From: a virus
Reading direction: 5' to 3' (one strand)
IMG/VR virus record: IMGVR_UViG_3300028610_000686
Location: 1 to 58,172 of that record
Length of the DNA stretch: 58,172 nt
A program made the position numbers and the translations under genes. Shown here piece by piece: positions 4,157 through 58,172 of this stretch (positions are counted from its first letter, which is position 1; each line of letters begins with the position of its first letter). The notes under the pieces are model-generated. The model did not search any database and was not told the DNA's origin. It was given only the letters and a program-made list of their open reading frames with translations.

Positions 4157-4516
4157 ATGACAAAATGCGAATGCGAGCCATTTCAAAAATGTCTTTGTGA
4201 AAAATCAGAAACAGAAATTGAAAAAGATATCATAGAATATCTTGAATCAATCACTCACTGTATGGCCTACAAAACATCCACGAAAGGTAGGAAAATAGGA
4301 AAACAGAGAGTAAAGGCGACAAAGAAAGAAAAGCCTGGGAAATCTGATATTGTTTGTTGTTACGATGGACTATACATCGCAATTGAAGTAAAATCAAAAG
4401 ATGGGACACAGCAAAAAAACCAAGAAGATTTTGAGAAAGAAGTGACTGCGGCCGGCGGTGAATATTGGTTAGTTAGATCACTTGAAGAAGTAATTATAAA
4501 ATTAGAGGGCAAATGA
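4157..4516 (+). CDS. VRR-NUC-type nuclease domain protein
   Basis: 119 aa from ATG 4157; the frame is open upstream but overlaps the previous gene. Residues 61-90 hold the VRR-NUC core: GKSDIVCCYDGLYIAIEVKS then TQQKNQ. Asp64, Glu77 and Lys79 correspond to the PD-(D/E)xK acids and lysine, and the Gln-rich helix follows as expected. The N-terminus has an extra Cys cluster (CECEPFQKCLC). Stand-alone VRR-NUC proteins are common in phages and are presumed structure-specific DNA nucleases used in replication or recombination. It is coupled to the next gene by ATGA. Confidence 0.8.
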   Translation: MTKCECEPFQKCLCEKSETEIEKDIIEYLESITHCMAYKTSTKGRKIGKQRVKATKKEKPGKSDIVCCYDGLYIAIEVKSKDGTQQKNQEDFEKEVTAAGGEYWLVRSLEEVIIKLEGK

Positions 4517-4725
4517 AACTGAATCCAAAGCAAATAATTAAAATAGACAAAATAGAAACAGAAGCTTGGAAATATTTAGGGAACATGATCGATCAATTAC
4601 ACAAAGTTGGATTTATTGTAGGGGGAGATTATAAAAAAATAGAACGTAAATTTAATGGATGGTTGCAGTCGTATGGCATGAAACGACAACCGCTTGACAA
4701 GCTTGGTAAAACTGGTAAAAAATAA
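4513..4725 (+). CDS. Small hypothetical protein
   Basis: 70 aa and basic, translationally coupled to the VRR-NUC gene by a 4-bp overlap. Helical, with KIDKIETEAWKYLGNMIDQL. Coupling suggests a partner role, but there is no recognisable domain. Bases 4726-4818 after it hold no gene that I can support. Confidence 0.5.
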   Translation: MKLNPKQIIKIDKIETEAWKYLGNMIDQLHKVGFIVGGDYKKIERKFNGWLQSYGMKRQPLDKLGKTGKK

Positions 4726-4818
4726 ATAGAGATACGATGTCGATAGAAGATGCTTAGAAAGCAATGGATATTTTGAGGCAATTGAGAATTTTATTAATGT
4801 TCCGCAAGGAGGTTGAAA

Positions 4819-5055
4819 ATGGTATTCGGATTAATTGGCAATGTAATTGGAAAAGTTGTTGATGAGGTTGACGAATTTGCGAGCAATCCGGTTGGATATG
4901 TAGTCGACGCCGCAGCAAAACCAATACGTGACGGACTTGAAGTTCTTCAAGGATTAACAGAGGGCGAGTTAAGGGTTAAAGCAATAGCACGTTTCGGCGC
5001 TGACGCCGTAGTCGGCATGGGGTCCGCCGAATTAATTGATTTATTAATGAGTTGA
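4819..5055 (+). CDS. Small Ala/Val/Gly-rich hypothetical protein
   Basis: 78 aa from ATG 4819. It has the best Shine-Dalgarno in this region, AAGGAGG, 6 bp upstream, which decides the start. The N-terminus (VFGLIGNVIGKVVDEVDEF) is amphipathic and the remainder has GVTL-like helices rich in Ala and Asp. It could be a small amphipathic membrane-associated protein. Composition (higher GC, GCC codons) differs a little from the neighbours. Confidence 0.6.
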   Translation: MVFGLIGNVIGKVVDEVDEFASNPVGYVVDAAAKPIRDGLEVLQGLTEGELRVKAIARFGADAVVGMGSAELIDLLMS

Positions 5056-5059
5056 TAAA

Positions 5060-5233
5060 ATGCCTGATCAATATACATCAATTGATAATTCAGCTAGTGT
5101 AAATCTCAATGATAATGATTATGCGAATTATCTGAAATACAAAAAGCAACTAATTGATGATGGCGAAACATTCGAAGAAATTGAAAAAATATTAACCGGT
5201 TATATTTGGGATGAAATAGAAAATTATGATTAA
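5060..5233 (+). CDS. Small acidic hypothetical protein
   Basis: 57 aa, starting 5 bp after the previous stop. It is rich in Asp, Asn and Glu (NLNDNDYANYLKYKKQLIDDGE). The helix DGETFEEIEKILTGYIWDEIE follows. It overlaps the next ORF by 8 bp. Unknown. Confidence 0.5.
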   Translation: MPDQYTSIDNSASVNLNDNDYANYLKYKKQLIDDGETFEEIEKILTGYIWDEIENYD

Positions 5234-5372
5234 AAAAGAAAATGATTATATTACGTATCCAGGAATCAGGGTAAGTGAATATACTATTAAATGCGCGGCC
5301 ATCCCTAAATGGATTATAAAAATTTTAGAGACCACGTTCAACAAAAGAATTAACGGAAAAGGGAAAAGATGA
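5226..5372 (+). CDS. Small hypothetical protein
   Basis: 48 aa, basic at both ends (MIKKEND and FNKRINGKGKR), with overlapping junctions on both sides. The only support is compact coupling with its neighbours. No family recognised. Confidence 0.4.
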   Translation: MIKKENDYITYPGIRVSEYTIKCAAIPKWIIKILETTFNKRINGKGKR

Positions 5373-5539
5373 TTAAAAAAATAATTATTGAAATCGACGG
5401 GAATGAAATCGAATTATCAAAAGAGCAAGCGATAAAATTAAGGAATGATTTGAACGAAATAACGAATCATTCAACGATCCAGTTTGTTCCTTATGAACCC
5501 TATGTGCAACCAAACTATCCATTGTATCCTCAGTTTTAG
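5369..5539 (+). CDS. Small hypothetical protein
   Basis: 56 aa, coupled by ATGA. The N-terminus KKIIIEIDGNEIELSKEQAIKLRNDLNEI forms a beta hairpin plus helix. The C-terminus is Pro/Tyr-rich (VPYEPYVQPNYPLYPQF). The N-terminal pattern 'I.I.G..i.Ls..eA..L...L' is frequent in small phage proteins of unknown role. Confidence 0.5.
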   Translation: MIKKIIIEIDGNEIELSKEQAIKLRNDLNEITNHSTIQFVPYEPYVQPNYPLYPQF

Positions 5540-5594
5540 ACGACAGACATTACAGATGGCGGTAATTAATAATCGAGATTTCATAAGGGGATAA

Positions 5595-5810
5595 ATGGAA
5601 CATGAAGAAAAAGAAGCGATTCACGAGACATTAGATAAAATTCTAAAACACATGGCTAATTGTGAATTCAAAATGATGTACACTCAGATTGAATATCTTG
5701 TGCAACTTGTGGAAAATGATTCGCAAACTGAATGCGAAACAAGGCAGGTTATTGCAGAATATTTTGAAACAATTAATACTATCCGCTCCAATCTAGAAAA
5801 AACTAAATAA
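5595..5810 (+). CDS. Small helical hypothetical protein
   Basis: 71 aa, behind AAGGGGATAA, the typical strong Shine-Dalgarno of this phage. It is entirely helical and acidic (EEKEAIHETLDKILKHMANCEF, then EYLVQLVENDSQTECET). It may form a coiled coil. No family recognised. Confidence 0.55.
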   Translation: MEHEEKEAIHETLDKILKHMANCEFKMMYTQIEYLVQLVENDSQTECETRQVIAEYFETINTIRSNLEKTK

Positions 5811-5864
5811 AAACAATCTAATAAAACTTTCTATGAATTATTTTGCTTATTTGAGATAAAAAAC

Positions 5865-5893
5865 TTGACACATTTGATCAACAAGAATAGAAT
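5865..5893 (+). promoter_or_regulatory. Sigma70-type promoter, first of a duplicated promoter-leader pair
   Basis: TTGACA (5865-5870), 17-nt spacer, TAGAAT (5888-5893). The spacer starts CATTTGATCAA, nearly the same as in the promoter at 47423-47451. Both leaders end with CTCGGAGAAAGT directly before the start codon. Confidence 0.6.
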
Positions 5894-5954
5894 CATAATT
5901 AAGAGATCAGCAATAAAGCTTAGGTCTCGAAACACGGAACTCTCGGAGAAAGTG

Positions 5955-9235: not shown

Positions 9236-9968
9236 TATCCAGTTTATAAAAGACACTTCGCAAGCAGAAATAGATAAACTTGATGGGGATGTTTTGGTTT
9301 TGTACCGTGAAGGATACAAATTACCAAAAATAGAAAGTGCTGAATACATGGAATTTGAAACATTCAGAAGTAAATACATTGATATTCATGCAAAAGTAAT
9401 TGTTTTAATTGGATTGATAAGAATGATTACACCGTCAAATAGATGTGACACTGTACACGAATACCTAACAACATTAACTCCTAATATCAGAAAAATAAGT
9501 ATTGATATTGAACCTTTTCTTGGAGAGCCTTGGCGGTTAATGTGGCATTATCTCTATACAAAAAATAATCATTTTAATGTCCCTCATAGCTATGCCTTAG
9601 AAACAGAATGGCAAAAATGGTTTTACCGGGATATTAATGATTCCAGAATATCCGGTAATAATATTAAAATGTTTATACAGAATACTTATTCTGACTTGGA
9701 CCAATTTAATTCAGAATTTGGTTTTTATGATTGTGCTTCAGAAGAATGGTATTCCGAGGCAAAAGACCATGTTTTCGCAAAATACAATACCCCGAAGCAA
9801 TTAATTAACAATCTTCTTAAAGAGTGCAATAAAAAGTTTGATATAAAATTCAGCTTTGAATCATACAGGGAAAGTAAAAAGTTTGAATTACCAGATCTAA
9901 AAGTATACCGATTTGTTACTGAGGAAGCTAAAAGAAGAATGTCAATTTATAACTCTGTGATATCATGA
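9228..9968 (+). CDS. Unknown protein of the PAPS-reductase/ParB cassette
   Basis: 246 aa, overlapping the methyltransferase-like gene by 8 bp and the next gene by 4 bp. The N-terminal half has beta-alpha repeats (DVLVLYREGYKLPKIES, KVIVLIGLIRMITP, RKISIDIEPFLGEPWRLMW), suggesting a Rossmann-like core without a clear nucleotide-binding motif. The C-terminal half is helical. ISIDIEPFLGEPW could hold an acidic active-site pair. I do not recognise a family. Its place between two enzyme genes suggests it is part of the same pathway. Confidence 0.55.
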   Translation: MHDIQFIKDTSQAEIDKLDGDVLVLYREGYKLPKIESAEYMEFETFRSKYIDIHAKVIVLIGLIRMITPSNRCDTVHEYLTTLTPNIRKISIDIEPFLGEPWRLMWHYLYTKNNHFNVPHSYALETEWQKWFYRDINDSRISGNNIKMFIQNTYSDLDQFNSEFGFYDCASEEWYSEAKDHVFAKYNTPKQLINNLLKECNKKFDIKFSFESYRESKKFELPDLKVYRFVTEEAKRRMSIYNSVIS

Positions 9969-11041
9969 AAATATACAATCCAGAAATAAATGTTCTTGAT
10001 GCTACCAGAGAAAGAATAAGCTATTTATTTGACGAATTTGAAACAATCAACGTTTCTATTTCATCCGGTAAAGATAGCACTGTTCTTTATTATTTATGCC
10101 TCCAGGAAGCAAAAAAACGGAATAGAAAAATAATAGCTTTCTTTCAGGATCAAGAAGCCGAGTATGCTGCATCAATTGAGATCATGAAAATACAAATGGA
10201 CCACCCAAATGTTATTCCGGCGTGGTACCAAGTTCCTATTTATCTAACTAACTCAACAAGCTATACAGATTATTTTTTATATGCATGGGGCAAGGGGGAT
10301 AAATGGATGAGGGAAAAGGACCCGGTTGCAGTTAAAGAAATTGACGAAGATTACCCACCTAGATTCTATGAGTTTTTTAAATGGTATGAGCAAAAGAATC
10401 CAGATGCTGCTTACTTAGTAGGTCTTAGAGCAGATGAAGGAGTAATTAGATTCAGAGCTGTTACTAAATATGTTGGATGGAACGGTATTAGATGGTCAAC
10501 AGAAACAGATAATATTAAAAAATTCTACCCTATTTATGATTGGGGATTCGCTGACATTTGGAAGTTTATTTATGATTATAATATTCCATATAACAAGATT
10601 TATGATTTGATGTTCATGGACAATTATAGTTTTTATAATAAAATGCGAGTGTCGAACCTGATTCATGAAAAATCATACAAATGTTTGATTGATCTTCCAA
10701 AGTATGAACCAGAGACTTACAATAAACTTTCAAAAAGAATCGGGGGTATTCCAACAGCTCAAAGATACGCAAGTGAAAAACTTGTTTTTAACAACAAGAA
10801 ATTACCGAGACATTATAAGACATGGAAAGATTTTAGAGATTTTCTTTTGTTGAATATTCCGGTTGAAGAACACCGGGAAAAGTTTATTGCCAGGTTTGAG
10901 AAACAAGAAAACTCAGAAAGAATTTATCAAGCACAAGTAGGGCAGCTTTTAATTAATGATTTTGAAAACAGCCGTGCTTTCAATACGAAAAAAACCCAGT
11001 ACGATAAAAAGGTAAAAGAAAAATGGATGAACATACTGTAG
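9965..11041 (+). CDS. PAPS-reductase-like (IbrA/DUF3440-type) ATP-pyrophosphatase, copy 1
   Basis: 358 aa. The N-terminus has the adenine-nucleotide alpha-hydrolase loop as SSGKDS (residues 33-38; the usual form is SGGKDS). FFQDQEAEY follows, then AAYLVGLRADEGVIR and IYDWGFADIWKFI, all hallmarks of the PAPS-reductase/DUF3440 group that includes E. coli IbrA. The C-terminal segment GGIPTAQRYASEKL...LPRHYKTWKDF is also typical of DUF3440. It should bind ATP and adenylate or transfer sulfur on an unknown substrate; reductase activity on PAPS is not implied. The ParB-like gene overlaps its 3' end by 19 bp, as ibrA/ibrB pairs do. Confidence 0.8.
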   Translation: MKIYNPEINVLDATRERISYLFDEFETINVSISSGKDSTVLYYLCLQEAKKRNRKIIAFFQDQEAEYAASIEIMKIQMDHPNVIPAWYQVPIYLTNSTSYTDYFLYAWGKGDKWMREKDPVAVKEIDEDYPPRFYEFFKWYEQKNPDAAYLVGLRADEGVIRFRAVTKYVGWNGIRWSTETDNIKKFYPIYDWGFADIWKFIYDYNIPYNKIYDLMFMDNYSFYNKMRVSNLIHEKSYKCLIDLPKYEPETYNKLSKRIGGIPTAQRYASEKLVFNNKKLPRHYKTWKDFRDFLLLNIPVEEHREKFIARFEKQENSERIYQAQVGQLLINDFENSRAFNTKKTQYDKKVKEKWMNIL

Positions 11042-11550
11042 AACAAAAAGCAACTGAAGTTATTGTGGTGCCATTGGAAAAGATGTTTTCGAATGATTAT
11101 AATCCAAATCGGATGCCAGATACAGAAATGGATCTATTAAAACAATGCATTGTAAAGTATGGTTTTTTATTCCCAATACTTGTTACTTGGGTAGAAGAAA
11201 AACAAATGTATCGTATTATTGATGGATTCCATAGATATGAAACACTTAAACGAATTGGAGCAAAAGAGGCTTCAATTATCGATATGAAACTGCCATATCA
11301 TGACGCGGTTCAATTGACTGTATTAATGAACCGGATTAAAGGATTGCATCAAGTGGAAATGATGAGCGATTTAGTTTTGAAGCTTGAGAATTTAGGGCTT
11401 GAAGACACTGAAATATGTGATAACCTAGGCATGGAAAGTGAGGAGTACATGAGACTCAAGCAACAATTGGGAATAGCCCATGCCTTTAAAAACCACGAAT
11501 ACAACTCGTCATGGGCTATTGACAAGGAAACATACGGATTGAAAAAATGA
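11023..11550 (+). CDS. ParB-like (IbrB-type) protein, copy 1
   Basis: 175 aa. The N-terminal ParB/sulfiredoxin-like fold is shown by VPLEKMFSNDYNPNRM, then LLKQCIVKYGFLFPILV and IIDGFHRYETL, where DGFHR is the conserved G-x-H-R nucleotide-binding motif. A helical C-terminal part (VEMMSDLVLKLENLGL...ICDNLGMESEEYMRL) resembles the ParB helix-turn-helix. IbrB-type ParB proteins pair with IbrA-type proteins; this gene overlaps copy 1 of that partner. It may be a CTP/ATP-dependent subunit guiding the partner to DNA; that is inference. Confidence 0.8.
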   Translation: MDEHTVEQKATEVIVVPLEKMFSNDYNPNRMPDTEMDLLKQCIVKYGFLFPILVTWVEEKQMYRIIDGFHRYETLKRIGAKEASIIDMKLPYHDAVQLTVLMNRIKGLHQVEMMSDLVLKLENLGLEDTEICDNLGMESEEYMRLKQQLGIAHAFKNHEYNSSWAIDKETYGLKK

Positions 11551-12068
11551 ACTTTAAAAACGAACCGGTTTCAAATGTGCAATGGGTTCATTCATCAACT
11601 ATTGCAAAGAACTCATACAACCCAAATCATGTCGCAAAACCCGAACTTGAATTATTAAGAAGGTCAATTGAAATCAATGGTTTTACACAGCCGATAGTTT
11701 GCTGGAATGATTCAGGTCGACTTGAAATAGTTGATGGATTCCATAGGTCATTGGTAGGCCAAAATACAGAATCTATCAGGAATAGACTCAATGGATTTTT
11801 ACCAGTAGTCATACTGAATAAAGAAAACACCGGCAAGAATGACAGAATAGCCGCCACGATAAGGCACAACAGGGCAAGAGGTAAACACAATATGTCAGCA
11901 ATGTCTGATATCATTATCGAACTTAAAAGACGCAATTGGAGAACTTCAAGAATCTGCAAAGAGCTTGGAACTGACGAAGATGAGGTTTTAAGATTGATGC
12001 AGATTAATGGATTAATTGAAATGTTTTCTGATAATGATTACTCTGAAGCGTGGGAATATGAAATATAA
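11547..12068 (+). CDS. ParB-like (IbrB-type) protein, copy 2
   Basis: 173 aa, coupled by ATGA to copy 1. It has the same layout: WVHSSTIAKNSYNPN at the start, LLRRSIEINGFTQPIV, IVDGFHRSLVG (the G-x-H-R motif), then ATIRHNRARGKHNMSAMSDII and a C-terminal helix-turn-helix (RTSRICKELGTDEDEVLRL). RHNRARG is the second conserved ParB motif, clearer here than in copy 1. The two tandem copies probably come from duplication and may form a heterodimer or serve the two PAPS-reductase-like proteins separately. Confidence 0.8.
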   Translation: MNFKNEPVSNVQWVHSSTIAKNSYNPNHVAKPELELLRRSIEINGFTQPIVCWNDSGRLEIVDGFHRSLVGQNTESIRNRLNGFLPVVILNKENTGKNDRIAATIRHNRARGKHNMSAMSDIIIELKRRNWRTSRICKELGTDEDEVLRLMQINGLIEMFSDNDYSEAWEYEI

Positions 12069-12459
12069 ACCATATTGGATACGAGAAGATTATTTAAACG
12101 GGATGTTTAATACGACAACAAAAAATGATGAGTTATCTATCAAAAAAGTTGAACGACTTTTTAAAAGCGAAAAACGCACAATAAAGGCGATGTATTCAGT
12201 AATACAAAAATGGCATCACTCAACAGGACATAACCTTACCAACAGGTCGATAAATAGAATTGCTTGGCTTGGACAAGCGGCTTGCTGCTATTCGTTAAAA
12301 GTCCCGGACTATATTACTAAAAAAGCTTGGTGGAATCTCCCGAAAGAAATACGAAACAGAGCGGATAAAAACGCCAAAGATTTAATAGAATCTTATGAAA
12401 ACAAAACTAAAAATCAATGTATTGGAAGCCGCAAAGCAGAGAATCAACTTTGTTTTTAA
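12058..12459 (+). CDS. Unknown helical protein of the PAPS-reductase/ParB cassette
   Basis: 133 aa from ATG 12058, overlapping ParB-like copy 2. It is helical and basic. NRSINRIAWLGQAACCYSLKVP and KKAWWNLPKEIRNRADKNAKDLIESY are notable. The CC pair could bind metal but has no partner Cys visible. It overlaps the second PAPS-reductase-like gene by 65 bp. I cannot assign a family. Confidence 0.6.
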   Translation: MKYKPYWIREDYLNGMFNTTTKNDELSIKKVERLFKSEKRTIKAMYSVIQKWHHSTGHNLTNRSINRIAWLGQAACCYSLKVPDYITKKAWWNLPKEIRNRADKNAKDLIESYENKTKNQCIGSRKAENQLCF

Positions 12460-13531
12460 TACATTTGAAAAGATTTATCTTTGTTTTTCAGGTGGCAAGG
12501 ATTCGACTGTTATGTTTCATTTAGCTGCAGCCGAAGCAATCAAAAAAAAAGTCAAGATTGATGTTTTGTTTATTGATTTAGAAGCTCAATATAAGGCCAC
12601 GATTGATCATGTAAAAGCAATGTTTGGATTATACAAAGATCATATCAATATCCATTGGGTTTGCATTCCATTAACTCTGAGAAATTCGCTGTCAGTATTT
12701 CACCCTAGTTGGATATGCTGGGAACATGGAAGAGAGTGGGTGCGGGAAAAACCAAATAATGACAGTTTCGTGTTTTGCTATCCATCAATGGAGTTTGAAG
12801 AGTTTACTTATTGTTTCGGTAAGTGGTTTGCAAAAGATAAATTAACCGCTTGCCTGGTTGGAATCAGAACAGACGAAAGTTTAAATCGTGAAATGGCGTT
12901 GCAGTCAATTAAAGAAAGTTACAATCAATGGACAACAAAAATTCATAAGAATGTTTTTAACTGTTATCCTATTTATGACTGGAAAGTTTCTGATTTATGG
13001 GTTTATACGCGGAAAGAAAACAAGATGCACAATAAAATTTATGATCTGATGCAGCAAGCGGGTGTCCCGTTAAAAGATCAAAGGATATGCCAGCCATATG
13101 GGGATGACCAGAAAAAAGGGTTGTGGCTTTATCATCTACTTGAGCCTGAGACATGGGACAAAGTTTTAAATCGGGTGTCAGGAGTAGGTGGTCACGAACA
13201 TACCAAAGAAAGCAAAATAAACAAACCGGATAAATTGTCATGGAAAAAATATTGTGAGCTTTTAATTAATTCAATGCCAGCAACTACAAAAAATCACTAT
13301 ATCGAACGAATCACAAAATATTGTAAATCATGGGAGAATCGAGGGTATGGAGATGGGATATGTAATATTGTTCCGGATAACATCGAGCGCAGAAACATAG
13401 CACCATCATGGAAAGCTATTTCAAAAGCGATATTGAAAAATGATTATTGGTTTAGATCTATTAACATGACTCAACCGTTTAGCAAAACATACGGGGAGTA
13501 TTTAAAAATAAGAGATGGAATCATAAACTGA
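12395..13531 (+). CDS. PAPS-reductase-like (IbrA/DUF3440-type) ATP-pyrophosphatase, copy 2
   Basis: 378 aa. It carries the canonical SGGKDS P-loop (residues 32-37), then DVLFIDLEAQYKATIDHV, ACLVGIRTDESLNR and IYDWKVSDLWVYT. The C-terminal part (RVSGVGGHEHT, LSWKKYCELLINSMP, and NDYWFRSINMTQP) is the usual DUF3440 end, which copy 1 lacks. It is thus the better preserved of two divergent paralogs. The family belongs to the ATP-pyrophosphatase superfamily that activates substrates by adenylation before sulfur or nitrogen transfer. Substrate unknown. It is the last gene of the cassette; a 93-bp gap precedes the terminase genes. Confidence 0.85.
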   Translation: MKTKLKINVLEAAKQRINFVFNTFEKIYLCFSGGKDSTVMFHLAAAEAIKKKVKIDVLFIDLEAQYKATIDHVKAMFGLYKDHINIHWVCIPLTLRNSLSVFHPSWICWEHGREWVREKPNNDSFVFCYPSMEFEEFTYCFGKWFAKDKLTACLVGIRTDESLNREMALQSIKESYNQWTTKIHKNVFNCYPIYDWKVSDLWVYTRKENKMHNKIYDLMQQAGVPLKDQRICQPYGDDQKKGLWLYHLLEPETWDKVLNRVSGVGGHEHTKESKINKPDKLSWKKYCELLINSMPATTKNHYIERITKYCKSWENRGYGDGICNIVPDNIERRNIAPSWKAISKAILKNDYWFRSINMTQPFSKTYGEYLKIRDGIIN

Positions 13532-28338: not shown

Positions 28339-28739
28339 CAACGATATTAGAAGCGACAACGATCATTACAACACAGTTCAATAGTAATTACAGTACAACG
28401 ACCGTGCGTTGGCCAAATGTTGCTTTTGAAGAACCCGAAGACGGAACACCCTGGGTGTCATTTAATATTTCAATAGCAGATGCAATAATTCAAACAATAT
28501 CAGTAAAACACAACGATCAATTGGGGATGGTGTTAATCAATGTATTCACAAAAGCCAGGACTGGTATGATCGCAAATAATACATTGGTTCAAGAGGTACG
28601 AGCAATTTTTAATCGACTTACGATTACCGGCATTCATTTTGAAGCACCGGAAATCCGTCAAGTCACAACGAATTCAGACGATATATGGTTCAACCAATTG
28701 GTCAGGATTCCTTTTGTGTACAACGAAGCACTTAGTTAA
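28335..28739 (+). CDS. Tail terminator protein
   Basis: 134 aa, coupled by ATGA to the gp10-like gene. TTVRWPNVAFEEPEDGTPWVSFNI and GMVLINVFTKARTGMIANNTL follow the tail terminator pattern (W-P-N...P-x-x-x-x-W and a G-x-x-x-I-x-V-F-x-x-x-x-x-G). It caps the tail tube at the head-proximal end. Confidence 0.75.
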   Translation: MTTILEATTIITTQFNSNYSTTTVRWPNVAFEEPEDGTPWVSFNISIADAIIQTISVKHNDQLGMVLINVFTKARTGMIANNTLVQEVRAIFNRLTITGIHFEAPEIRQVTTNSDDIWFNQLVRIPFVYNEALS

Positions 28740-28750
28740 GAGGTAAAATT

Positions 28751-29698
28751 ATGACTATTGCGAGAGGTGAAAACAGTTGGTTTAGATATATCGTGGAAGC
28801 AACGTGGGGAACTCCACCAACAACCGGTACAATGCAACCGGTTGCGATTGTTTCTGAAGCGTTGAAATTCGTCAAAACTAAAAACCCGTCAAACTCGATT
28901 AATGATCACGGCAATATTGTGACATTGATTAATTCTCCAAATTCCGTGTCAGGTAACTCAGTACACGAATTGAGATATGGAGAATTTGACACGATTTTTG
29001 AAAGTGCGATGGGTGCTGCTTGGGCTACAGATGTTTTAACGAATGGGCAAACGGAATCCAGTTTATCATTTGAACGTGGGCTTTTTGATATCGAGGTTTT
29101 TCATTTGTTTCAGGGCGTTCGTGCATCCGGATTCAGTCTGTCTGTTCCAAGCGACGCGCGTAAAGTCGATTTAACATTTAACTACATCGGCAAGGACGAA
29201 CTTATTCCTGTTCCAAGCGGCACGGATGGCGATTGGGTCGGTGATAACGTCGGTGTCACATTAGGTACAAATCCAGCGGCGGCAAAATCACCGATGTATT
29301 TGGAATGTGGTGAGCTGAAAATCGATGATACAACGGTAAGCGTAATTACTGGCTTAAATCTTGATGTCAATCGTCAATTAGCACCGGTTAATACGGTTGA
29401 TTGTGACGACCCAATTGAATTAAGTCGAACAGGGTTGATTACTGTTACTGGAAACCTGAACGGTGTGATTGAAGATAATGACATGTATAACCGGTATATC
29501 AACGACACTGTGTTTACTCTAGATCTGCAATTCACAGATGGTACCAGTACCTATCTTTTTGTCATGGATCATGTTGAATTAACTGATTCAGAACAGCCGA
29601 TCGCAGGGCCAGGTGATGTTGTTAACAATTCACCGTTTCAGGCGTTTTATGATTCCACTTTGACGGGATCTTTGCAAATCACGAGATCGGCAACATAA
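28751..29698 (+). CDS. Major tail tube protein
   Basis: 315 aa, behind AAGAGGTAAAATT. ENSWFRYIVEATWGTPPTTG, GNSVHELRYGEFDTIFESAM and the middle FNYIGKDE are features of the Phage_tube_2 family of tail tube proteins. The C-terminal half ends with an added beta-rich segment. High Ser/Thr/Gly content and a strong Shine-Dalgarno suit an abundant virion protein. Confidence 0.8.
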   Translation: MTIARGENSWFRYIVEATWGTPPTTGTMQPVAIVSEALKFVKTKNPSNSINDHGNIVTLINSPNSVSGNSVHELRYGEFDTIFESAMGAAWATDVLTNGQTESSLSFERGLFDIEVFHLFQGVRASGFSLSVPSDARKVDLTFNYIGKDELIPVPSGTDGDWVGDNVGVTLGTNPAAAKSPMYLECGELKIDDTTVSVITGLNLDVNRQLAPVNTVDCDDPIELSRTGLITVTGNLNGVIEDNDMYNRYINDTVFTLDLQFTDGTSTYLFVMDHVELTDSEQPIAGPGDVVNNSPFQAFYDSTLTGSLQITRSAT

Positions 29699-54853: not shown

Positions 54854-55054
54854 TTATTTTCCCGCTAATTCATCCAAGCTGCATTCAAGAACTTCACTCA
54901 TTTTAATGAGAAGATCTACATTCGGCTTAGACACTCCTCTCTCATATTTACTCACCTGCCCTATTTTAATTCCAATTAATTTACCAAACTCAGGTTGAGT
55001 TAATCCTTTACGTTTCCTTAGTAATAGCAAATTTTCTTTAAATATCCCTTTCAT
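54854..55054 (-). CDS. XRE-family repressor, DNA-binding domain only
   Basis: 66 aa. LLLLRKRKGLTQPEFGKLIGIKIGQVSKYERGVSKPNVDLLIKMSEVL is the complete Cro/C1-type helix-turn-helix (recognition helix IKIGQVSKYERG), and CSLDELAGK ends it. It has the typical length of a SinR/Cro-like repressor with no oligomerisation domain. It is divergent from the nucleotidyltransferase gene, whose promoter at 55087-55114 is the natural target. Confidence 0.8.
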   Translation of the reverse strand: MKGIFKENLLLLRKRKGLTQPEFGKLIGIKIGQVSKYERGVSKPNVDLLIKMSEVLECSLDELAGK

Positions 55055-55122: not shown

Positions 55123-55166
55123 AAACTGAAATTACATAAGGGTAAAACTGAAATTACATAAGGGTA
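55123..55166 (+). repeat. Two tandem 22-bp repeats containing the ribosome binding site
   Basis: The unit starts AAACTGAAATTACATAAGGG and runs to 22 bp (55123-55144 and 55145-55166), identical. Each unit includes AAGGGTA, so the transcript carries two ribosome binding sites, only the second being properly spaced from ATG 55170. Confidence 0.75.
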
Positions 55167-55169
55167 AAA

Positions 55170-56159
55170 ATGATAAACAAAATAAAACAACACATAAAAG
55201 ATTTCGACAAGTTGAATATAATATTTCTAACCAAATTTGGTTCCCATTTATACGGGACCGATTCGGAATCATCCGATATTGATATTAAAGGCGTATTTCT
55301 CCCGACGACTGAACAGTGCTTTCTAAACGAAATTCCAAAATCACTTTCTTATTCATCTGGAAAAGATGACTCGAAAAATTCCAGTGATGATATTGATATC
55401 GAACTGTACTCACTGCATTATTATCTCAAGTTGCTGCAAAAAGGGGATACCGGCGCAATCGATATGTTGCACGCTCCAATGGCTGTTATTATACAAACAA
55501 GCGAGTTATGGGAGCAATTACATGATGATAGGAGAGAATTCTATACTACAAATCTCAGCGCATTCGTTGGCTATTGCAGGACACAGGCGAGCAAGTACGG
55601 AATAAAAGGGAGTCGTCTGAGTGATGCTAAAAAAGTACTTGACTATTTAGAACCTTTTAAAGATGAAGAAAATTCTCGAAAATTATTTGAAATATGGGAT
55701 AGTTTACCAACTGGGGAACATATACATAAAATCCCATCTAATCCTGAATTGAGAATTGATCACCCCATGTATCAAGTCTGTGGTAGAAAACTGCAATCAA
55801 CCGTGCCAATTTGGAGGGCTTATGGGTGCATTAATCATTTTTATCAAGAATACGGCAAACGAGCCAAACTAGCAGCGGAGAACAAGGGGATTAACTGGAA
55901 AGCCGTTAGTCATGCAATTCGTTGTGCATTCGAAATGCACTCGATTTATTCACAGGGAGGTCTCACATTTCCATTACGCCAAGCAGATTATATCAAAATG
56001 GTGAAAAACGGCGAACGTGATTATAAAGCCGTTGCTGAGAATCTTGAAACATTAATGGATCAGGTTGAAAACCTGGCAGCAAATTCGAAATATCCTAAAA
56101 AAGTGGATATGAAAAAATGGAATGATTGGTTAATCGATATTTACAGAAATCATGAATAA
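55170..56159 (+). CDS. Nucleotidyltransferase, YcgL/COG3541-like
   Basis: 329 aa. TKFGSHLYGTDSESSDIDIKGVFLP holds the pol-beta-type GS (residues 24-25) and the two catalytic Asp (36 and 38); DDIDIELYSLHYYL supplies the third acidic residue, near residue 75. Later come HAPMAVII, IKGSRLSDAKKVLDYL and KAVSHAIRCAFEMHSIYSQGGLTFPL, which follow the COG3541 order. The superfamily transfers nucleotides to RNA, protein or small molecules. The substrate here is unknown. It is the first gene of its operon and lies under the XRE repressor. The next gene overlaps by 8 bp. Confidence 0.8.
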   Translation: MINKIKQHIKDFDKLNIIFLTKFGSHLYGTDSESSDIDIKGVFLPTTEQCFLNEIPKSLSYSSGKDDSKNSSDDIDIELYSLHYYLKLLQKGDTGAIDMLHAPMAVIIQTSELWEQLHDDRREFYTTNLSAFVGYCRTQASKYGIKGSRLSDAKKVLDYLEPFKDEENSRKLFEIWDSLPTGEHIHKIPSNPELRIDHPMYQVCGRKLQSTVPIWRAYGCINHFYQEYGKRAKLAAENKGINWKAVSHAIRCAFEMHSIYSQGGLTFPLRQADYIKMVKNGERDYKAVAENLETLMDQVENLAANSKYPKKVDMKKWNDWLIDIYRNHE

Positions 56160-56557: not shown

Positions 56558-56587
56558 TTGACATATTAAGAACATTATAAATATACT
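56558..56587 (+). promoter_or_regulatory. Promoter of the pentamer-array operon, leaderless type
   Basis: TTGACA (56558-56563), 18-nt spacer, TATACT (56582-56587). The start codon at 56594 falls at the expected transcription start and there is no Shine-Dalgarno. Confidence 0.6.
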
Positions 56588-56593
56588 ATAAAC

Positions 56594-56758
56594 ATGAAAA
56601 CAAAAACCATAATGGTCATGGTGACCGAGGATTTTAAAGAAAGGGTTCGAAAAGCTGCCAATCATGACAATAAAAGCTTGAGTGCTTATGTTATCGATTG
56701 CTTGCTTGTTGATCTCAAAAAACGAAAGGTTGAAAATATTAAATCTTTCAGTAAGTGA
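56594..56758 (+). CDS. Small ribbon-helix-helix (Arc-like) protein
   Basis: 54 aa. KTIMVMVTEDFKERVRKAANHDNKSLSAYVIDCLLVDLKKR shows the beta strand, two helices and the S-x-x-x-[YF]-[VI] turn of Arc/CopG proteins. First gene of the operon whose spacers contain the 5-nt arrays, and starting at a likely leaderless position. It could be an autoregulator, or possibly bind the repeated arrays as DNA. Confidence 0.7.
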   Translation: MKTKTIMVMVTEDFKERVRKAANHDNKSLSAYVIDCLLVDLKKRKVENIKSFSK

Positions 56759-56763
56759 AAACC

Positions 56764-56863
56764 GGCCAGGCAAGACGAGACATGGCGGGTCAAGGTGCGA
56801 CTTGGTCAGACTGAACCGGACAGGACAACGCACGATTCGACGAGTCAATTCAAGGCAAGATTT
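56764..56863 (+). repeat. Pentanucleotide-periodic array 1 (20 units)
   Basis: From GGCCA at 56764 the spacer splits into 20 consecutive 5-mers of type G-R-Y-N-N, for example GACGA GACAT GGCGG. Of the first 19 units, 16 begin with G; the exceptions are AACCG, CGCAC and TTCAA. It ends TTCAA GGCAA GATTT. No ORF. The 5-nt period rules out codon phase as the cause. It lies directly after the ribbon-helix-helix gene. Confidence 0.8.
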
Positions 56864-56886
56864 TTTAAACAATCAGGAGAAAAAAC

Positions 56887-57378
56887 ATGGATCAATCATT
56901 ATTTGAATTAAACGTTGATACACAAATCCTTTTTGATCGGCTTTCGACAATGAAAAAAGGTGATTTCATAGCTTACGAAACTTTGACTGATCTGATCAAA
57001 AAGAACGTTCAGATAGAAGGATATCGATATCTTTATACAGCCAGAAATATGATGCGCAAAATGCACGGCATTGTAATCGATGTAATCGAAAACGAAGGCT
57101 TAAGAGCTTTAACCGATGAAGAAAACATTGCATTGACCGGCAAAAGAGCTTTGAAAGGAATCCGTAACAAAGCGAAACTAGCAGCCTCGAAAATCACAAA
57201 GATTGATGATTTCAGCAAATTGAGCGATGAATCAAAAATCAAACACAATGCCCACCTTGGAATTTTCCAAATATTCATTGCAAACACCAGCAAGAAAAGG
57301 ATTGAAAAAGTTGAGAACAAGGTGGCTGAAACTGGTGAAAAATTGCCGATGAATGGTATTTTGGAATTGTTTAAGTGA
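56887..57378 (+). CDS. Unknown protein between arrays 1 and 2
   Basis: 163 aa, behind AATCAGGAGAAAAAAC. Mostly helical, basic: LFDRLSTMKKGDFIAYETLTDLI and RYLYTARNMMRKMHGIVIDVIENEGLRAL suggest a winged-helix-like N-terminal half. The second half is a charged helical tail (NKAKLAASKITKIDDFSKLSDE). A nucleic-acid-binding role is plausible. Both flanks are 5-nt-periodic arrays. Confidence 0.6.
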   Translation: MDQSLFELNVDTQILFDRLSTMKKGDFIAYETLTDLIKKNVQIEGYRYLYTARNMMRKMHGIVIDVIENEGLRALTDEENIALTGKRALKGIRNKAKLAASKITKIDDFSKLSDESKIKHNAHLGIFQIFIANTSKKRIEKVENKVAETGEKLPMNGILELFK

Positions 57379-57386
57379 TTATCCAG

Positions 57387-57451
57387 GGTGAGGCGTGGTT
57401 AGACAAGTCGTGATGAGTTGAGACAAGACGCGACAATTCAAGACAAGGATT
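57387..57451 (+). repeat. Pentanucleotide-periodic array 2 (13 units)
   Basis: 13 consecutive 5-mers from GGTGA to GGATT, G-first in 12 of 13. It contains GACAA GACGC GACAA and ends TTCAA GACAA GGATT, then AAAA. The same layout as arrays 1 and 3. Confidence 0.8.
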
Positions 57452-57482
57452 AAAATGGGGGAAACTTATGATTTAAAAACAA

Positions 57483-57552
57483 GACGTGACCAGACCTGGA
57501 GAGACGCGGCATGATGGGATGCGGCAAGACGGGACAATTCAAGGCAAGGATT
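57483..57552 (+). repeat. Pentanucleotide-periodic array 3 (14 units)
   Basis: 14 consecutive 5-mers from GACGT to GGATT, G-first in 13 of 14. It ends GACAA TTCAA GGCAA GGATT, matching the end of array 2. It precedes the last gene by 39 bp. The 31 bp between arrays 2 and 3 hold only a 19-codon ORF (57454 onward) that runs into array 3, which I do not count as a gene. Confidence 0.8.
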
Positions 57553-57591
57553 AAAACAAAACAATTCAAAACATTAAAATCAGGGGATTTT

Positions 57592-58152
57592 ATGAAAGTA
57601 GCAACAGTACAACTAAAAAGCATGGCTTCGTATTCACAGGGTCGATACCATGATACCGAAAAACTTAACAAAGAAAGCCACGCAGATTATGAAGAAAGAA
57701 CATGGAGAAACAAACTGCACGTAAACAAAGACGGATTTGTATTCATTCCGGCGATGGCTTTTAAAAATTGCATTTCGGAGTGTGCAAAATATCTGAGTAT
57801 TCAGATACCAGGAAAAGGGAAAGCGACGTATACAAAACATTTTGACGCCGGTGTTATTGTCAGTGATGCTTTAGTTCTGGATACCAAGGCGGAAGATGTT
57901 GAATGTGAAAGACTATTCATCCCGAATCCGGGGACAACCTCAAGAGTTAAAAAATCGTTTCCAATTATTCATGAATGGAGTGGCGAAGTTAAGTTTTTCA
58001 TTCTTGACGAAACGATAACAGAAAAAGTTTTTACTGACCACTTAAAGCAAGCCGGTCAGTTTATTGGAATCGGAAGATGGCGCCCGAGAAATCGTGGATT
58101 ATACGGACGTTTTACCGTTGAAAGTGTTGATTTTGCACCTTATGAAATTTGA
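57592..58152 (+). CDS. Unknown protein with glycine-rich C-terminal motif
   Basis: 186 aa from ATG 57592, behind CAGGGGATTTT. The N-terminal YSQGRYHDTEKLNKESHADYEERTWRNK and middle FVFIPAMAFKNCISECAKYLS are followed by a C-terminal QFIGIGRWRPRNRGLYGRFTV. This Gly/Arg-rich end (G-I-G-R-W-R-P...G-x-Y-G-R-F) resembles the glycine-rich loop of RAMP/Cas7-like RNA-binding folds and is conserved in phage proteins of this kind, but I cannot confirm homology. It is followed at the window edge by what may be a fourth array. Confidence 0.6.
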   Translation: MKVATVQLKSMASYSQGRYHDTEKLNKESHADYEERTWRNKLHVNKDGFVFIPAMAFKNCISECAKYLSIQIPGKGKATYTKHFDAGVIVSDALVLDTKAEDVECERLFIPNPGTTSRVKKSFPIIHEWSGEVKFFILDETITEKVFTDHLKQAGQFIGIGRWRPRNRGLYGRFTVESVDFAPYEI

Positions 58153-58172
58153 TGTGGGGTTGATAGGCAGGT

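Follow-up and report, generated by a model that had tools for sequence, protein, structure and literature searches.

Viral Interference Programmable Repeat (VIPR) systems, described in a preprint of April 2026 (PMC13142463), are built around Vipr, an ancestral RAMP protein of ~20 kDa that uses RNA to find and silence the DNA of rival phages. The guide RNAs, known as vrRNAs, consist of 9-16 alternating GGY/NN units followed by a 3' tail; the fixed triplet is the scaffold, and the NN letters are the guide, which pairs with double-stranded DNA while one target base is skipped, with the repeat being given as GGY/NN "or a related consensus" (PMC13142463). A glycine-rich loop, a thumb domain, and an invariable structured 3' tail are listed as hallmarks, helper genes are termed vap, and VIPR as a whole comprises seven types and represses competing phages (PMC13142463). 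The arrays of phage SUSP1 yield RNAs of ~100 nt that program DNA binding (PMC13142463). Two further RNA-guided systems invite comparison with the locus described below. The RAMPs of class 1 CRISPR-Cas, namely type VII Cas7 and Csm3, share with it an RRM-based fold and a glycine-rich loop, and assemble, as would be expected here, as oligomers on a guide RNA with periodically interrupted pairing, but CRISPR-Cas uses a contiguous spacer, whereas the arrays considered here place NN letters every 5 nt. TIGR-Tas (PMC12045711), in the part of its description drawn on here, is likewise phage-borne and RNA-guided with tandem short guides, but is built on another protein family, found from the Cas9 guide-RNA-interaction domain.

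The stretch of DNA that we analysed, hereafter the window, is a virus record of 58,172 bases, in which three in-register blocks of G-R-Y-N-N units lie on the + strand, each in a single register and all confined to two spacers, 56759-56886 and 57379-57591. The gene order of the module is array-vap-array-array-vipr, with a ribbon-helix-helix (RHH) gene at its head, and its features are as follows.

56558..56587, + strand: promoter-like site TTGACA-18-TATACT ahead of the module, 11/12 consensus matches
56594..56758, + strand: small ribbon-helix-helix protein of 54 aa, possible regulator (weak NikA/Arc-like RHH matches)
56764..56863, + strand: vrRNA array 1 (predicted), 20 units, 15/20 exact GRY, ~17 guide units plus terminal AA units
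56844..56863, + strand: 3' end of array 1, a variant of the shared tail, GTCAATTCAAGGCAAGATTT, read directly
56887..57378, + strand: putative Vap, accessory protein of 163 aa, SUSP1 vap1 homologue with a predicted winged-helix-like N-terminus and helical C-terminus
57387..57451, + strand: vrRNA array 2 (predicted), 13 units, 9/13 exact GRY
57432..57455, + strand: shared tail of array 2, GACAATTCAAGACAAGGATTAAAA, read directly
57483..57552, + strand: vrRNA array 3 (predicted), 14 units, 11/14 exact GRY
57533..57556, + strand: shared tail of array 3, GACAATTCAAGGCAAGGATTAAAA, read directly
57592..58152, + strand: predicted Vipr, 186 aa, a single RAMP/Cas7-like protein with the glycine-rich loop GIGRWRPRNRGLYGRF (fold model, profile match to PDB 36pp)
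58153..58172, + strand: spacer after vipr; the contig ends 20 bases past the stop

An earlier note on this DNA had described the blocks as 20, 13, and 14 consecutive units, and although its places, strand, and register stand, "consecutive" was too strong a word in view of the exact counts above; the misfit units keep the register and are mostly one base off (GTCAA, AACCG, CGCAC, TTCAA, GGATT). The periodic signal that it expected to exceed that of shuffled sequence does so clearly, with Viterbi array scores of 49, 28, and 37, where the highest-scoring shuffles gave 14.6, 14.1, and 15.7, and with none of 1000 dinucleotide shuffles reaching the score of the respective array. Elsewhere in the 58-kb window the next-best array score is 16.1, within the whole-window shuffle maxima of 12-20, and in the flanks around the window's vipr no period is stronger than 5. 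The repeat is best written GRY/NN, with A at base 2 in 57% of units and mostly G in the remainder. Arrays 2 and 3 close with an identical 24-nt end, GACAATTCAAGRCAAGGATTAAAA, of which a near copy, GTCAATTCAAGGCAAGATTTTT, closes array 1; no strong common fold of these tails was seen, nor a structured pseudoknot like that of SUSP1-clade tails. An Rfam search of the module gave no array match (one sub-threshold chance match fell outside the module) and a search of 18 relatives gave none, so no hammerhead ribozymes were found in either set. The tandem-repeat scan of the window yielded no CRISPR repeat-spacer array. Relatives carry a further array that begins ~570 bases after the vipr start, where the window is cut, and one of its arrays may thus be missing.

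Searches of Pfam, NCBIfam, and PADLOC gave no significant match for the protein encoded at 57592, which falls only into a PHROG without annotation, and scanning the module genes against the same three collections revealed no cas genes. Its predicted structure is confident (pLDDT 96.3), and in the PDB fold comparison, with E down to 2e-8, the best matches listed are all CRISPR RAMPs from type VII, III-A, III-B, and III-E complexes, led by type VII Cas7 and Csm3. Across 47 sequences, the loop residues G155, G159, R164, G169, and G172 are invariant, and R173 and F174 nearly so. The 56887 product belongs to no clear family; its model (pLDDT 94.8) gives weak matches to winged-helix proteins in the PDB, and the predicted fold is in keeping with a DNA-binding vap. 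Its homologues adjoin vipr in ~57 of the 63 relative loci introduced below, where no homologue of the 54-aa RHH protein occurs. The promoter-like site ahead of the RHH gene was the best of 12 sites in a scan whose total was no higher than in shuffles. Upstream, the module is adjoined by an RlaP-like nucleotidyltransferase gene at 55170-56159 (Pfam PF10127, E=4e-17; PHROG 388), and between that gene and a small XRE-like HTH gene (54854-55054, - strand) lies a 22-bp tandem repeat (55123-55173, 2.3 copies, 96% match) that adjoins a promoter-like site and possibly represents repressor operators. Far from the module, at 9965-13531, reading by eye picks out a pair of PAPS-reductase/DndC-like proteins (SGKDST motif) that enclose two ParB-like proteins, a cluster that hints at a role in DNA modification or sulfur transfer.

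A scan of IMG/VR returned 63 viral loci that encode relatives of the 57592 protein, and the same query returned none from GTDB genomes. Clear GRYNN arrays stand beside vipr in under half of these relatives, and several are far stricter than those of the window, such as (GACNN)25 and (GGCNN)22, with diverse NN letters. When motifs were instead learned de novo from the surroundings of vipr in the 64 loci that include the window, period-5 arrays were found in 64/64, mostly in the spacers that precede vipr, separate it from vap, or follow vap; their orientation is that of vipr, and in many relatives arrays also follow the last gene. The occurrence of arrays beside 57592 homologues, which the earlier note had proposed as a check, is thereby borne out: period 5 is the top period in 63/63 relatives (64/64 with the window) against 2 of ~62 unrelated viral stretches, and the lowest score of a vipr locus, 35.5, lies above the highest shuffle, 33.1, with 2/62 unrelated stretches also scoring >35.5. 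In many loci, whatever the triplet, NN is AA in the units that immediately precede the tail. The association also appears in reverse, as 14 of the 80 loci picked solely by the DNA pattern (GRCAA)x4 encode the 57592 family, while others encode a second array-linked family (IMFDRYAGDN type) with a profile-profile match of 97%. This second, RAMP-like family lies between GRYNN arrays at L079:4032-5522 and, on the - strand, at L126:5704-7282; a calcineurin-like phosphoesterase, recognised by a weak Metallophos match, is encoded beside it, possibly marking a nuclease-bearing VIPR type. A further viral contig (L129:1-11020) carries five period-5 arrays on both strands, of up to 445 bases, with an IMFDRYPGDN-type protein.

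The link to the described system is provided by SUSP1 (KT454805.2), on which our array scanner recovered three of the four vrRNA arrays, around the gene at 28474-29061. This gene matches the 57592 family at 39.5 bits, its product is contained letter for letter in a chain of PDB 36pp, "SUSP1 Vipr protein", and the 57592 family profile itself matches 36pp with E=3.2e-9; a profile-profile comparison of the family with the SUSP1/LESphi2 clade gives 99.5% over 172 columns, and the match between SUSP1 vap1 and the 56887 family scores 36.1 bits. In LESphi2 (Pseudomonas phage, OQ594955.1), a phage of P. aeruginosa LESB58, an unannotated VIPR occupies 4465-5944, with arrays at 4465-4759 and with vipr (WIL01370.1) and vap (WIL01369.1) both listed as hypothetical. 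On the grounds of the RAMP fold, the 36pp match, the vap1 homology, and the placement of the arrays, we file the window as VIPR, and we are highly confident that 57592 and its arrays form a VIPR locus of an uncultivated tailed phage that would be directed by vrRNAs against competitor DNA. The VIPR anatomy rests here on array statistics, protein homology and fold, Vap homology, and conserved placement, whereas the loading of RNA, the one-base-skip code, and repression are carried over from the experiments on SUSP1 (PMC13142463); that the system would work in the same way in this phage, and against whom, is likewise drawn by analogy. The earlier note knew of no named system that the arrays would match, and VIPR (PMC13142463) now supplies one. 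Its proposal of multivalent sites for an oligomerising, operon-encoded protein, best read as RNA, appears right in outline in the light of RAMP homology and VIPR anatomy, and of the three candidate binders it named, 57592 is the probable one, judging by its predicted RAMP/Cas7 fold and the match to 36pp.

By analogy with SUSP1, each of the three arrays would be transcribed into a vrRNA of pentanucleotide units followed by the short common tail, and several Vipr subunits would align along a single vrRNA, with one subunit gripping the G-R-Y triplet of each unit and leaving the two variable letters free for DNA. Read in order (NN-x-NN-x-NN), the NN letters would spell the target, such that the informative part of the arrays is presumably these hypervariable letters, which the earlier note overlooked. 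The complex would then attach to a competitor's double-stranded DNA, be it that of a phage or of a mobile element, and block its transcription, and Vap, as a DNA-binding helper, may strengthen the block.

The closest relatives of the locus in the literature, the type II clade of SUSP1 and Pseudomonas fulva (PMC13142463; 36pp; KT454805.2), are phage-borne like the window and share with it a small single RAMP, homologous by profile, a homologous vap1 adjoining vipr, and pentanucleotide arrays in the spacers around both genes, with variable NN letters and a fixed triplet. The differences concern the triplet, which is GRY in the window, with frequent G as well as A at base 2, and GGY in the SUSP1 clade; the tail, short and A-rich in the window and pseudoknotted in the SUSP1 clade; one loop position, occupied by Arg in the window's Vipr and by Asp in the SUSP1 clade; and the module itself, with its additional small RHH gene and its order of arrays and genes, unlike that of the SUSP1 clade.

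The triplet also varies among the relatives of the window, in which CGC, GGC, GAC, GTT, AGT, CAC, and AAC dominate at different vipr loci and CTC, AGC, GTC, and ATT occur as singletons; period 5 is kept at all loci with lineage-specific triplets (L028, L029, L017, L012, L041, L055, L058, L060, and others), among which L017 uses GGC, L028 GAC, and L041 CAC. Base composition does not simply account for this, with GTT found at 58% GC (L059) and CAC at 60% (L055), and the most parsimonious number of triplet changes is 25 on a quick tree with weak branches. Base 2 of the triplet covaries with the loop residue that corresponds to R162 of the window: loci with G have Arg in 32/32 cases and loci with a residue other than Arg have a base other than G in 15/15, a count in which the triplet phase of four loci, all with Arg, was set by hand. 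The association (Fisher 2e-8) is the best of 3440 tests, its column having been selected out of several hundred that were tested; when either trait was simulated on the same quick tree, the observed correlation was reached in 0/4000 runs in each direction, and an independent-pairs test offers too few pairs to reach significance. The rule is bound to this clade, since the distant SUSP1 clade combines Asp at this position with GGY repeats. There is, in our judgement, about an even chance that the scaffold triplet is a lineage dialect, switched many times and read by Vipr, with residue 162 reading base 2 (Arg for G), and that phages consequently carry mutually orthogonal VIPR systems, each deaf to the guides of the others; the window, with Arg162 and a mixture of G and A at base 2, would be an intermediate. 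Neither the dialects nor the covariation with the loop residue figures in the main text of the preprint (PMC13142463); some of the dialects may already appear in its supplement.

The repeat of the window is GRY instead of GGY and shows less regularity than that of several relatives, so some of its guides may be decaying. The most serious alternative carries this further and holds that the locus is VIPR by descent, but that its arrays are worn or non-targeting, the scaffold having drifted and the guides matching no current element. The exact GRY fit of the three arrays, compared with nearly 100% in L017, L026, and L028, speaks for such wear, as does the outcome of the target scans, which followed the one-base-skip rule with no mismatch allowed and found no convincing target among 2.9 million viral contigs for the three guides or among GTDB genomes for guide 1. 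Exact 8-unit scans of IMG/VR with guides 1, 2, and 3 gave match numbers near chance, with extension not beyond chance, and there is no self target in the window; one guide of the relative L017 found nothing either, and a low-power test of whether the NN letters resemble codon bases 1-2 revealed no excess. Nine units of guide 1 had 6 matches in GTDB genomes, one of which extends to 12 contiguous units (24/24 letters) in a bacteriohemerythrin gene of Sedimentibacter (L233:2842-2876); we do not claim it as a target, the match being weak and chromosomal, with the skip on codon base 2 and agreement in only 1/10 remaining letters. Against wear, three separate arrays retain their register and a common tail, neither vipr nor vap is disrupted and their residues are well conserved, uncultivated targets are under-sampled, and the scans tolerated no mismatch. 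We consider worn arrays unlikely, though the likeliest of the alternatives.

Less probable still is the TRAP-like autoregulation that the earlier note had suggested, in which an oligomer would bind the arrays in its own mRNA and control translation of vap and vipr; on this reading the NN letters would be uninformative. The arrays are indeed located 5' of vap and vipr, in spacers and near ribosome-binding sites, and one would naturally expect Vipr to bind its own mRNA as a by-product. The resemblance to TRAP, however, is limited to evenly spaced triplets with a step of ~5 nt: TRAP has another fold and another triplet (NAG, where the window has GRY), and the window shows no sign of a ring or of tryptophan logic. 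The 57592 protein is a predicted RAMP whose homologue in SUSP1 is a guide-RNA protein characterised by experiment, with arrays that give RNAs that program DNA binding (PMC13142463), and the arrays that follow the last gene in many relatives argue against a leader, which would be pointless there. That the arrays serve, together with the phage RecT gene (50507), as a single-stranded DNA tract for replication or for annealing, the latter also raised in the earlier note, can be set aside as highly improbable: the RecT annealing protein is encoded 6 kb upstream, but the arrays accompany vipr and vap across relatives, oriented with vipr, and their triplet varies between relatives while period 5 persists, which would be odd for annealing. 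Functionless expansion of simple sequence by slippage, suggested by short tandem units with variable letters, is equally remote, being contradicted already by the strict link to vipr at 64/64 loci, by NN letters so diverse within arrays that the units are not recent copies, and by Tandem Repeats Finder, which reports no array at the three blocks.

VIPR has been presented as a new logic of RNA-guided DNA recognition and is proposed to predate CRISPR (PMC13142463). To this picture the window adds a clade of VIPR from uncultivated phages, with at least 63 further loci, within which the period-5 rule is universal and the triplet is not, and it names residue 162 as one that may set the triplet. If this is true, scaffold recognition becomes testable by single swaps and orthogonal VIPR systems are suggested, and period-5 arrays in spacers provide a homology-free way to find further RAMP families.
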